From: Gammaproteobacteria bacterium
Lineage (GTDB): Bacteria > Pseudomonadota > Gammaproteobacteria > Steroidobacterales > UBA11654
Direction: 5' to 3'
Length of the DNA stretch: 40,013 nucleotides
Assembly: GCA_029244925.1 (NCBI GenBank)
Contig: JAQWQE010000019.1
Location: 1 to 40,013, forward strand
The notes under the pieces were generated by a model. That model made no database searches. It worked only from the letters and a program-made list of their open reading frames with translations, and was not told where the DNA came from. The position numbers were made by a program, and so were the translations under genes. Positions 13,586 through 18,297 of this stretch are shown here, one piece after another (the first letter of the stretch is position 1; every line of letters starts with the position of its first letter).

Positions 13586-14185
13586 TTAATTAATTGATTC
13601 CGGAGGTATTGTTGTCTTTTTACTATCTGTTGTTTCATCTAATGCTAAATCTAAGTTCTTTGGTTCCTTGATCTGTGGTAATTCTGGTAATTGACTTAAA
13701 GATTCAAGTCCAAAGTAGTCTAGAAATTCTGGGGTTGTTGCAAACATTGCTGGTTTACCAGGGACTTCTCGATAACCTATTATTCTTACCCAATTTCTAT
13801 CAGTGAGCGTTTTCATTATACTTGTACTGACTGTTACACCTCTGATGGATTCAATATCACCTCTTGTTACAGGTTGTCTATAAGTAATAATTGAAAGCGT
13901 TTCAAGCAGTGCTCTTGAATATCTAGGTATTCTTTCAGAAAAGATAATACTCAGATAATCTGTTAGTGTATTTTTTGCTTGAATTCTATAACCACTAGCA
14001 ACATTGATAATTTCTATTTCTTTTAGTGAGTAATCATCTTTTAGTTCATCGATAGCATTAAGAATATCAGCTTTTGTAGTTTGATTATGCTTTGATAGGA
14101 CTTTGTATAATTTATCAGCTGATATCGGTTCAAATGATGAAAGAAGAATTCCTTCAATAATGTTTTTAAGTGCTTTCTTATTCAT
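13586..14185 (-). CDS. scpB: ScpB, segregation and condensation protein B
   Basis: The 199-residue protein shows the ScpB tandem winged-helix pattern. It starts with IEGILLSSFEPISADKL (about residues 10-26), has ALLETLSIITYRQPVTRGDIESIRGV in the middle (about 93-118), and GKPAMFATTPEFLDYFGL near 147-164, ending in a polar, acidic tail. ScpB dimers bind ScpA and regulate the SMC ATPase complex that compacts and segregates the chromosome. Its scpA neighbour is 4 bases upstream and rluB 3 bases downstream. Because smc lies in the same run, all three condensin subunits are encoded together. Confidence 0.93.
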   Translation of the reverse strand: MNKKALKNIIEGILLSSFEPISADKLYKVLSKHNQTTKADILNAIDELKDDYSLKEIEIINVASGYRIQAKNTLTDYLSIIFSERIPRYSRALLETLSIITYRQPVTRGDIESIRGVTVSTSIMKTLTDRNWVRIIGYREVPGKPAMFATTPEFLDYFGLESLSQLPELPQIKEPKNLDLALDETTDSKKTTIPPESIN

Positions 14186-14189
14186 TGAT

Positions 14190-15011
14190 TTATTTTTTAT
14201 TGCTGCTTAATAATGCTTTTATGTGAATTGTACCGTATGATTTTGCTTGTACAATTTCAATCAATGATTCTTTCATTAGCTCCAATATAGCTAGAAAAGT
14301 TACGACTAAGCCCATTTTTTCCTCTTCTAAATTGAATAATGAACTGAATTCTACAAACTCTTTATTTTTAAGTGTTTCTAGAACATCTCCCATTCTTTCT
14401 CGAACAGAAAGAGGTTCTTTGGTAAAATGGAGTGTGGAGAACATGTCAGCTCTTTTTAAAACATCTTGAAATGAGAACACTAAGTCTTTTAAATCAATGT
14501 CAGGTAACTCCATTGGTTTTGCTAAATTATCAGAATTAACATTCGATACAAAGACGTCTCTATCAACCCTTTTCAATAAATTAATACTTTCAGAAACCGT
14601 TCTAAATCTTTCATATTCTAGTAACCTTCTTACTAACTCTGCTCGAGGATCATCTTCTTCTTCAATTTCTTCAAAAAGAGGAAGGAGCATTCGTGATTTA
14701 ATTTCTGCCAACATTGCTGCCATTAATAAATATTCACCTGCGAGCTCAAGAACTAGATCACTCATTAAATTAATATAATCTACATATTGTTTGGTTATTT
14801 CTGCAATTGGTATATCCAATATGTTTAGGTTTTGTTTTCTTATTAAATAAAGTAATAAGTCTAATGGGCCCTCAAAAGTATCTAAAAAAACTTTAAGTGC
14901 TACTGGAGGTATGTATAAATCTTGTGGAAGTTCAGTAAATGATTCACCATCAACGATAGCAAATGGCATCTCATTTTGAGTAGGATTATTGTTTATAAAG
15001 CCGTTATCCAT
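14190..15011 (-). CDS. scpA: ScpA, kleisin subunit of the SMC condensin complex
   Basis: The 273-residue protein has the ScpA hallmark FEGPLDLLLYLIRKQNLNILDIPI (about residues 47-70), then YLLMAAMLAEIKSRMLLP and a C-terminal winged helix (VVTFLAILELMKESLIEI, around 240-257). In known SMC-ScpAB the N-terminal domain contacts the neck of one SMC and the C-terminal domain the cap of the other, closing a ring. It starts 59 bases after zipA. That gap is AT-rich and shows no convincing promoter or terminator. Its SMC partner, encoded just upstream, lacks a visible hinge. This matters for how a closed ring could form here. Confidence 0.94.
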   Translation of the reverse strand: MDNGFINNNPTQNEMPFAIVDGESFTELPQDLYIPPVALKVFLDTFEGPLDLLLYLIRKQNLNILDIPIAEITKQYVDYINLMSDLVLELAGEYLLMAAMLAEIKSRMLLPLFEEIEEEDDPRAELVRRLLEYERFRTVSESINLLKRVDRDVFVSNVNSDNLAKPMELPDIDLKDLVFSFQDVLKRADMFSTLHFTKEPLSVRERMGDVLETLKNKEFVEFSSLFNLEEEKMGLVVTFLAILELMKESLIEIVQAKSYGTIHIKALLSSNKK

Positions 15012-15070: not shown

Positions 15071-15580
15071 CTATGCTGTAATATTATTCCTAAGCATTTC
15101 TAGGTAATTATTCTCATTAATTATTTGTCCTTCATCATTGTAAATTCTACCATTAATTTCTCTATTGATTTTATTTGCAGAATTAAACATGGTGTTGAGT
15201 ATTTTTTTATTATCAATAGGGTTTGATGTAACAAAGAAGAAAGTTAATCCTCTGATATTGAGAGCATCTTGGAAGTATCCAGGTTCATATAGATTCGCAA
15301 TAGTGAATATAATTTTACCATTATCAGATTTTTCAAAAACACCATTCTTATTTAAAAAAATATTATGATTTTTGAATTCATTAATTAGAAACTCTAAGTT
15401 TGTTTTTTTATTATTTAGGTAAATTCTGATTGATATAATTTCACCTGTATCATTGTGGAAAGAAAAATCACTATTGATTTCAAATTGATGTTTCTTAGAC
15501 TTACGTGGCCTATTTTCATATAGTAAGAAAATTATGAGCCCAAAAAATAGGATGCTAATGATAATCCATGAAATATCCAT
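15071..15580 (-). CDS. zipA: Short ZipA-like cell division protein
   Basis: The 169-residue protein has an N-terminal membrane segment (residues 4-20), a short basic stretch (RPRKSKK, 24-30), and then a domain resembling the ZipA FtsZ-binding domain. That domain shows LNKNGVFEKSDNGKIIFTIAN (about 76-96), EPGYF, and an RGLTFFF strand, as in ZipA (FSIANMxEPGxF, GLTLFMxLP). ZipA normally runs 250-330 residues because a long proline/glutamine-rich linker separates anchor and domain. Here the linker is almost absent. ZipA tethers FtsZ polymers to the inner membrane early in division. The start overlaps the smc stop by 1 base, and smc-zipA is a conserved gammaproteobacterial pair. Ligase gene ligA, often next, is missing. 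Identity is inferred from domain pattern and synteny. Confidence 0.78.
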   Translation of the reverse strand: MDISWIIISILFFGLIIFLLYENRPRKSKKHQFEINSDFSFHNDTGEIISIRIYLNNKKTNLEFLINEFKNHNIFLNKNGVFEKSDNGKIIFTIANLYEPGYFQDALNIRGLTFFFVTSNPIDNKKILNTMFNSANKINREINGRIYNDEGQIINENNYLEMLRNNITA

Positions 15581-18297
15581 CAGGAGGGACTAACTTCTTC
15601 TGTTAATGCTACTGCTTCATCAAGGTCAACAGACACCAATCTAGAAACACCAGGTTCGCTCATCGTTACCCCTATAAGTTGCTTAGTTAGTTCCATTGTC
15701 GTTTTATTATGAGTTATTACTACAAATTGAACAGTGCTACTCATTTCTTTAACTATTTGACAAAATCTACCAACATTGTTGTCATCTAGCGGAGCATCTA
15801 CCTCATCAAGTAAACAAAAAGGTGCAGGGTTTAACTCAAATATAGAAAATAGAAGTGCTACCGCAGTGAGTGCTTTTTCTCCGCCAGACAATAAATGAAT
15901 ATTACTGTTTCTTTTTCCTGGTGGCCTTGCCATTACAAAAACACCGCCTTCCAAAGCATCATTATTTTCAAGTTCTAGGTAAGCTTTACCACCCTCAAAA
16001 AGCTTAGGAAAATGCTTTTGCAATCCTAGATTTACTTTCTCAAAGGTTTCATTGAATCTGATCTTTGACTCATCATCAATTTGTTTAATTGCTCCAGTTA
16101 GTGTTTCTAAGGCTCTATTAAGATCATCAAATTGAGAATCAAGTTTGTCTTTTCTTTCTGTTTCTAATTCATATTCTGAGGATGCAGCTAAATTGATTGG
16201 TCCAAGTCTATCAATAGACTTTAATATTTTTTCTAATTCATCATGTAAGTCTTTTTCAGATTTTAGATTGCTAGAAAATGATTCTAATTCTTCGTTTGAA
16301 TAGCTACTATCTTGGAGTTGTTCATTCAGAGATTCTGTTCGAACATCAAGTTCTTTTTCTTTTAATTTATATTGATCTAACTCGTCTCTGGATTGATTCA
16401 CTTTCGAATTAATATTTGTCCTATCTATTTCTAGATTTCTAAGTTGAGACTGGCTATCCTCAGTTTCTTTTCTAAGTAGGTTAAGTTCTGATTCTGAATC
16501 CAAGCTTTTATTCAGTAATGATTCTAGTTTTTTTCGTATCTCATTTTCTTGTTCATTTTGTTTTATTGGTCCATTGGTTATCTCTAAAGATTTTGCTTTT
16601 AATTGAGTAATCTGGATCTCTATTCTATTAATAGCTATCTCAAATGCATTGATTGCTGACTTTTTAGATTCAATTTGTACTTCTAATGAATGTGCTTTTG
16701 GTAAAAGAGAGTTTAATTTTTGCTTTAAGGTGTTTCTATTGTTGGCTTGATCAGATTTCTTTTTGTCTGAATTCTCTTTTTTTGTCTCTAGATTGCCCAG
16801 TAAGTTTTTTGACATATCGTAGTTTTCTTTTGAAATTATGAGTTCTTTTTCATTGGTTGTTATTTCATTTTCAATGGATTGAAACTCATTGGTTAAATTT
16901 TCTAATTTATTATCAATATCAAAAATCTTTGTTTCAATGATTTCTATACCTTGCTTACTAATTGCTTCTTTTGATTTGTTTACTTCAACTTTTAATACTG
17001 AGAAAGCTGTTTTGATATTATTTAAATTCTCAATAGTTATTTTTTGTTTAGCGGTATTAAGAAGTTGCTTAGTCAGTATAGTGATCTTTACATTTTCAGT
17101 TTCTATTATGGTATTTGCCCTATTCAATTCATTTGTAGTTAGCTCATTATTTTGATTTTCTATAGCAATCTGTTGGTCCAATGCCTCGACTTCTAACTGC
17201 AGTGCATTTACTAATATTTGTGTATCTTGATTGGTTTTTTCAATACCTATTAAGTCAGTTTGATTCAGGGTGATATTTTTTATATCTTCTTTTAATTCAA
17301 TATTGAGTCGTATCAGTTCTTGCTTAAGATCTTCAGCATTAATTGTTTTTTGTGATTCAAGTTCTTTCTCATATTCAATTGATTGTTCTAGTCTTGCTAT
17401 ATTAGCTTGCAGTTCAAAATGCTGTTTTTGCTTATTATTGAAAGAGTCTGAATTTTGACTGTCTTTAATTCTTGCTTCTTCAATATCTGCTTCAACTTTT
17501 CTGAGAAAAGTAAGATTATCATCAAAAGCATTCTGATATTGTTTGGATTCACTTTTATTTGATTCCACTTGTTCGTTTAGAACTTTAATCTTCGATAAAA
17601 TTATTTCAACAGCAATTTGCTTTTCCCTTTGTTTTAAAGTTGTGTATCTACCAGCATCATTTGCTTGTTTTTTGAGTCTTTGAATTTGTTTCTCTATCTC
17701 ATCTTTAAGATCATTTAATCGATTAAGATTTTCTTTTGTGTTTTTAATTCTAGATTCAGTTTCTTTTCTTTTTTGTTTGTACTTAGAAATCCCTGCTGCT
17801 TCCTCTAAAAACAATCTCATTTCTTCAGGTTTACCTTCTATAAGTCCTGATATCATTTCTTGCTGAACAATCGCGTAACTTCTTGGACCAAGACCTGTTC
17901 CTAGAAACAAGCTAGTTATATCTTTTCTTCTACACTTAGTTCCGTTAAGAAAATATTGTGATTGGCCGTCTCTAGTAATGACTCTTCTAGTTGATATTTC
18001 ATTATAGTTTGCATACTCTCCGCCCAGTTTTTTATCAGTATTATCAAAAAATAGTTCTATTGAAGCACTGCTGACAGGTTTTCTAGTAGATGAACCATTG
18101 AATATGACATCTGACATGGATTCCCCTCTTAGATACTTAGCCGATGACTCGCCTAATACCCATCTAACAGCATCTATTACATTTGATTTACCACATCCAT
18201 TTGGGCCTACAATTCCTACCAGATTTGAGGGTAGCAATAGCGTCGTTGGTTCAACGAAAGTTTTAAAGCCTGAGAGTTTTATTTTACTTAATCGCAT
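15580..18297 (-). CDS. smc: SMC chromosome-condensation ATPase lacking a recognisable hinge domain
   Basis: The 905-residue protein has complete SMC head halves. Walker A is GPNGCGKSN (residues 31-39), a Q-loop region follows, the ABC signature is LSGGEKALTA (803-812), and Walker B is CLLDEVDAPLDD (828-839). The RLGPINLAA element before the C-terminal head is at 697-705. Ordinary bacterial SMC is about 1150-1190 residues with a 150-residue globular hinge in the middle. Here residues about 170-735 are charged, Glu/Lys/Gln/Asn-rich coiled coil with only a few glycines (216, 351, 450, 501, 576, 699, 735). No hinge motif is visible. There is also no CxxC zinc hook, so it is not Rad50/SbcC; the only cysteines are 35, 122, 828 and 846, all in the heads. 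G450 lies near the exact middle of the coil. It heads the smc-zipA-scpA-scpB-rluB run. Confidence 0.92.
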   Translation of the reverse strand: MRLSKIKLSGFKTFVEPTTLLLPSNLVGIVGPNGCGKSNVIDAVRWVLGESSAKYLRGESMSDVIFNGSSTRKPVSSASIELFFDNTDKKLGGEYANYNEISTRRVITRDGQSQYFLNGTKCRRKDITSLFLGTGLGPRSYAIVQQEMISGLIEGKPEEMRLFLEEAAGISKYKQKRKETESRIKNTKENLNRLNDLKDEIEKQIQRLKKQANDAGRYTTLKQREKQIAVEIILSKIKVLNEQVESNKSESKQYQNAFDDNLTFLRKVEADIEEARIKDSQNSDSFNNKQKQHFELQANIARLEQSIEYEKELESQKTINAEDLKQELIRLNIELKEDIKNITLNQTDLIGIEKTNQDTQILVNALQLEVEALDQQIAIENQNNELTTNELNRANTIIETENVKITILTKQLLNTAKQKITIENLNNIKTAFSVLKVEVNKSKEAISKQGIEIIETKIFDIDNKLENLTNEFQSIENEITTNEKELIISKENYDMSKNLLGNLETKKENSDKKKSDQANNRNTLKQKLNSLLPKAHSLEVQIESKKSAINAFEIAINRIEIQITQLKAKSLEITNGPIKQNEQENEIRKKLESLLNKSLDSESELNLLRKETEDSQSQLRNLEIDRTNINSKVNQSRDELDQYKLKEKELDVRTESLNEQLQDSSYSNEELESFSSNLKSEKDLHDELEKILKSIDRLGPINLAASSEYELETERKDKLDSQFDDLNRALETLTGAIKQIDDESKIRFNETFEKVNLGLQKHFPKLFEGGKAYLELENNDALEGGVFVMARPPGKRNSNIHLLSGGEKALTAVALLFSIFELNPAPFCLLDEVDAPLDDNNVGRFCQIVKEMSSTVQFVVITHNKTTMELTKQLIGVTMSEPGVSRLVSVDLDEAVALTEEVSPS

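Follow-up and report, generated by a model that had tools for sequence, protein, structure and literature searches.

In SMC models, the hinge is assigned dimerisation, ring closure, the DNA gate and DNA contact. A locus in the window (the whole stretch of 40,013 nucleotides of gammaproteobacterial DNA that was analysed) raises the question of how an SMC-ScpAB complex could be built without this domain, as an earlier, sequence-only reading had proposed that its SMC is hinge-less. We asked whether the hinge is really absent, how far the trait extends and how two such SMCs might be joined.

The smc gene of the window and the search for a hinge

The smc gene (15580..18297) starts with ATG and lies on the minus strand, a strand that the sequence-only reading had left unnamed. 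The score of its 905-aa product with TIGR02168 (the SMC equivalog model SMC_prok_B) was 836.6 bits, above the cut-off of 567 bits, and Pfam matched SMC_N. Translation confirmed that both ATPase halves are intact, as had been claimed, with Walker A (GPNGCGKSN, residues 31-39) at 18181..18207, the ABC signature (LSGGEKALTA, residues 803-812) at 15862..15891 and Walker B (CLLDEVDAPLDD, residues 828-839) at 15781..15816, all on the minus strand. ScpA and ScpB had also been correctly recognised beside smc: scpA, encoding the kleisin (273 aa; 14190..15011, minus), matches PF02616 (E 1.4e-34) and scpB (199 aa; 13586..14185, minus) matches PF04079 (E 1.5e-45), and scpA is separated from smc by a zipA-like gene (169 aa; 15071..15580, minus; PF04354, E 1.1e-12). 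In the order of transcription, smc is followed by zipA, scpA, scpB and rluB, and dksA-pnp-truB-infB is found on its other side; the gene order around smc is conserved within the window family, including in its second genus. Since the head motifs, the kleisin and ScpB are typical of SMC-ScpAB, the ATP cycle and kleisin bridging should, judging by the family, be ordinary.

The zipA product (15071-15580, minus) is only 169 aa long and scores below the NCBIfam cut-off, and its identity among window-family relatives is just 29-39%, unlike that of the neighbouring genes. The pnp gene of one relative (G009, C1:289061-291085) is in separate pieces with a stop within the matched stretch, which may be real decay or a sequencing error. 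The scpA-scpB pair is within ~10 kb of gyrA in the window and in other hinge-less families also; it is near gyrA, with smc elsewhere, in G094, G226, G326, G411, G438, G439, G440 and G442.

Pfam found no SMC_hinge in the window SMC at E<=10, and PF06470, which matched in 12 of 14 control genomes, had no match across the whole window genome (1.58 Mb, 79% complete). A second profile (A1), made from the hinges of 11 gammaproteobacterial relatives, recognised the solved SMC hinges 5h69 and 1gxl and matched order-mates at 1e-50 to 1e-68. This profile detected no hinge anywhere at E<=10 in the 11 window-family genomes (11/11), which is evidence against a detached hinge too. When hmmsearch was run with filters off on 67 SMCs, the split between hinge-bearing and hinge-less proteins was unchanged, and Pfam SMC_hinge, which matched three relatives with a hinge, matched none of six further hinge-less SMCs. 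The proposal that the hinge is genuinely absent was thus upheld: no profile matched the protein, residues 400-520 included, and the close relatives of the family lack a hinge as well. A cryptic hinge was ruled out by Pfam, by the order-mates' profile and by HMMER with filters off, and a split hinge elsewhere in the genome was ruled out by PF06470 (own genome) and by A1.

Collapse or deletion of the gene centre during assembly or annotation would also shorten the protein, and the window does come from an 85-contig draft genome. A protein search over 59 genomes for relatives of the window SMC sampled ten from the window family, eight with complete SMCs of 905-906 aa (63-67% identical to the window SMC) and two cut by contig ends. 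The length is constant across the complete genes of the window, seven congeners and the second genus, and other families have hinge-less SMCs in genomes assembled as a single contig (G226, G439, G440 and G442). The relatives' smc genes rule out loss in assembly, and we give an artefact practically no credence.

Alignment with smc from related genomes, a check recommended by the sequence-only reading, showed that the hinge is missing throughout the window family and carried by its sister families. SMCs of hinge-bearing order-mates measure 1162-1169 aa, except in two lineages at 1008 aa where the arms are shortened and the hinge is kept. The alignment with 20 order-mates is essentially gapless to residue ~419 and resumes at ~452, with ~297 residues of the order-mates (hinge and nearby coil) represented by ~32 in the window family. 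The replacement segment (~residues 420-451; 16945..17041, minus) has approximate borders, because gaps in the coil float.

Shortened SMCs with a retained hinge (1000-1008 aa) were observed in three lineages (L047 of G015, L048-L050 of f13 and L098 of G061). These proteins have lost ~80 residues per arm, and their arms of ~255-262 aa are near the 253-267 aa at which resized versions of B. subtilis Smc were reported to be functional (PMC5344682).

Distribution and history of the hinge-less SMCs

A survey with TIGR02168 across 369 gammaproteobacterial genomes gave further hinge-less candidates, whose status was confirmed by profile on the fetched genes and partly by Pfam. Outside the window family, hinge-less SMCs of 727-995 aa were found in six more gammaproteobacterial families. 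The SMC of family f151 is 926-944 aa, and all 17 genomes with a match in its order have an SMC of ~926-944 aa. That of family f52 is 923-940 aa, whereas its order-mates f191 and f172 have SMCs of 1146-1164 aa with a hinge. In an order of four families (f171, f181, f44 and f190), the fetched genes encode hinge-less SMCs of 727-827 aa, open frames reach at most 843, and SMC matches were obtained in 58 of 61 genomes; one genus of this order is at 995 aa and hinge-less too. The trait is therefore not local and is common to at least seven gammaproteobacterial families. The A1 profile found no detached hinge in the other hinge-less families, and both ScpA and ScpB were present in 29 of the 30 genomes tested, the exception (G497) having neither.

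The 995-aa genus (g302 of f181; L107-L109) was suspected of bearing a hinge, which the profile and Pfam ruled out. Its arms are longer than those of sister genera (995 vs ~730 aa), apparently because arm segments were duplicated within the protein; a second copy of the neck-like stretch GSFNLASPEEY is present in this SMC.

The genomes of the additional hinge-less families are of 0.7-1.8 Mb, and the GC content of the measured hinge-less loci is 27-36%. The hinge is retained in G015 (31% GC, 1.6 Mb), so a small, AT-rich genome is not by itself enough to force its loss. Comparison with the published description of SAR86/Magnimaribacterales (PMC11582366) suggests that the four-family order fits this group, given its family structure, the range of the family genome sizes and the presence of one small, fast-evolving family.

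A rival reading is that of a decaying or repurposed SMC, chromosome organisation having been abandoned during genome reduction, and the small, AT-rich genomes, together with the essential role of the hinge in studied SMCs, would be in keeping with this. However, dN/dS of close pairs was mostly 0.00-0.05 in the heads, 0.05-0.09 in the arms and 0.10-0.14 in the apex region, well below 0.2 in every SMC region; by this measure, strong purifying selection acts on smc. Decay, which we judge very improbable, is also opposed by the retention of ScpA and ScpB and by frames that stay open over their full length in nearly every genome of several families. That the hinge is absent and SMC-ScpAB function is retained is, on the contrary, something of which we are quite confident.

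The history of the loss can be read in two ways. Trees of the SMC heads neither supported nor rejected one origin, an AU test of a single clade giving p 0.18 for all hinge-less SMCs and p 0.36 without f52. All hinge-less lineages formed one clade in the PNP-only tree (87/95) and in the GyrA+PNP tree (82/81), and in the latter the window family adjoined the putative SAR86 order (94/91). The marker-gene trees placed the GC-rich, hinge-bearing f191 next to the hinge-less clade. By the order codes of the collection, f1 and f52, both hinge-less, are neighbours of families with a hinge, and these codes imply three to four hinge losses. We lean towards one old hinge loss, which the two marker genes favour. 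The apex profile of one family did not recognise the apexes of others above background.

Predicted shape of the coil and joining of two SMCs

The statements of the sequence-only reading on coil composition were found to be accurate: Gly and Pro are rare in the coil, G450 is the sole Gly/Pro between residues 352 and 500, and the coil of the window SMC contains no Cys, hence no Rad50-like CxxC hook. For residues 300-600, AlphaFold2 (fragment with a two-row alignment; mean pLDDT 85.8, mostly >95 in the distal arm and 70-83 at the apex) predicted a helix at 321-445, a turn at 446-447, a helix at 448-575 and zero strands. The distal arm (residues 321-575; 16573..17337, minus) is thus predicted to be an antiparallel hairpin of two long helices, the turn of which (16957..16962, minus) was predicted in both the full-length and the fragment models. 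The full-length model agrees with this hairpin, but confidence in it was low (two-row alignment; mean pLDDT of 53), so we relied on the fragment only. The simple hairpin that had been envisaged was borne out by AlphaFold, with the turn at 446-447 instead of the guessed G450. Before and, most clearly, after the turn, hydrophobic residues recur with heptad spacing. Comparison of the central 101 residues with solved structures gave weak matches, mostly to generic coiled coils; a weak coil match to the SMC construct 4rsj (E 6.2) did not cover any hinge-like stretch in the query. In 25 of the 33 hinge-less SMCs, the density of hydrophobic residues peaked at most 40 residues from the midpoint of the arm, by a crude test in which ~1/5 of windows are near the midpoint by chance and which fails in genus g302 (0/3).

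We propose that this protein is the cell's genuine SMC, the chromosome-organising ATPase of SMC-ScpAB, which lost the hinge and ~45-50 coil residues per arm in an ancestor and whose coil now closes as a plain helical hairpin. The complex would still load on and organise DNA, and two SMCs would still join away from the heads. The hydrophobic-rich hairpin tips may pack together as four helices, in a contact that would be weaker than a hinge and more dynamic, and the outcome would be a hinge-free yet closed SMC-ScpA ring. In B. subtilis, SMC function was abolished when hinge dimerisation was lost, and growth on rich medium was normal when a Rad50 zinc hook replaced the hinge (PMC5344682). The substitution by a zinc hook indicates that dimerisation, not the hinge fold, matters in B. 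subtilis, and some dimer contact, rather than the hinge fold itself, would be expected here. The hydrophobic peak near the arm midpoint (25/33) suggests that this contact could be a packing of tip to tip. Against a specific tip interface speak the weak conservation of the apex, which by dN/dS is the least conserved region of the SMC, and the failure of apexes to be recognised across families. We slightly favour this explanation as a whole, that is, a functional SMC-ScpAB in which a weak dimer contact between the tips takes the place of the hinge; the tip-to-tip dimerisation step, taken alone, we hold to be evenly balanced.

The main rival to this explanation dispenses with a stable tip contact: the monomers would be joined solely through ATP-driven engagement of their heads and through ScpA, which would link the neck of one SMC to the head of the other, and DNA would be held in the head-kleisin compartment with no hinge-closed ring. 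No dimerisation module is recognisable at the tip, which is the least conserved part and differs between families, arm length in the hinge-less families varies from ~190 to 325 residues (estimated from differences in length), and the heads, ScpA and ScpB are strictly retained, all as such a mechanism would have it. The B. subtilis protein is, however, non-functional once hinge dimerisation is abolished (PMC5344682), and most hinge-less SMCs are enriched in hydrophobic residues near the tip. We consider this rival a tenable but less probable account.

The SMCs could also be joined by another protein at their tips, either an adaptor or a hinge from a gene elsewhere, which would account for the disappearance of an essential contact from the SMC chain. 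Yet A1 found no detached hinge in the 11 family genomes or in the other hinge-less families, and PF06470 is absent from the window's own genome; the latter is 79% complete, and several of the other genomes, single-contig ones included, are far more complete than this. We think such a joining protein improbable, and tip packing remains our preferred reading.

Meaning and comparison with known systems

A whole natural lineage that has lost the hinge and kept ScpA, ScpB and the ATPase motifs tells us which of the hinge's jobs are dispensable, and the hinge-less families, with arms of ~190 to 325 residues, are natural test proteins. With a bare helical hairpin in place of the hinge, the joining of the two halves becomes a testable question. 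We advance only tentatively, and with more doubt than belief, that the SMC-ScpAB of several families of streamlined Gammaproteobacteria (with one order that fits SAR86) works without a dedicated dimerisation domain after one ancient loss. If true, bacteria would be able to organise their chromosomes without a hinge-gated SMC ring. Should the order be SAR86, a hinge-less SMC would be used by one of the most abundant bacteria of the ocean, and a cultured isolate, strain HIMB1674, exists (PMC11582366).

The canonical SMC of SMC-ScpAB (B. subtilis, order-mates) resembles the window SMC in its ATPase halves, coiled-coil arms, ScpA and ScpB and single copy. It differs by its hinge and arms of ~320-340 residues, whereas the window SMC has no hinge, arms of ~280 residues and hairpin closure. 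Rad50/SbcC and the archaeal ASRPs (ClsN/Sph) also have a hairpin coil without an SMC hinge. Rad50/SbcC dimerise via a zinc hook, with CxxC at the apex. ASRPs dimerise via a zinc hook as well (PMC9389158), whereas the coil of the window SMC is without Cys. The B. subtilis Smc with a Rad50 hook is likewise an SMC-ScpAB without the hinge fold, but it is engineered and has a known dimeriser (PMC5344682); the window SMC is natural and has no known dimeriser.

The claim that no hinge-less SMC had been described does not stand, since SMCs termed "hinge-less", with no hook and no regular SMC alongside, were reported from marine Actinobacteria by Sussfeld et al. 2025 (PMC12153180), as a metagenomic gene cluster with no reported ScpAB context. 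These proteins share with the window SMC the SMC head, the antiparallel coil and the lack of hinge, zinc hook and regular SMC. They belong to a different phylum, and the window group is genome-resolved, with ScpA and ScpB tested and hinge-bearing sisters identified. The nearest matches of the window SMC are gammaproteobacterial SMCs, the actinobacterial ones being compared by description, and a named relative that carries this gene is listed under Gammaproteobacteria. The window SMC shares the hinge-less and CxxC-free features of the Actinomycetes proteins and falls outside their clade. Retrieval in that study demanded 80% mutual length cover (PMC12153180), a threshold at which an SMC of 730-905 aa would fail against one of 1166 aa. 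No report of a hinge-less SMC in Gammaproteobacteria was found in our incomplete coverage of the literature. What is new here is a second, genome-resolved occurrence, in several families, with ScpAB retained and with hinge-bearing sisters.
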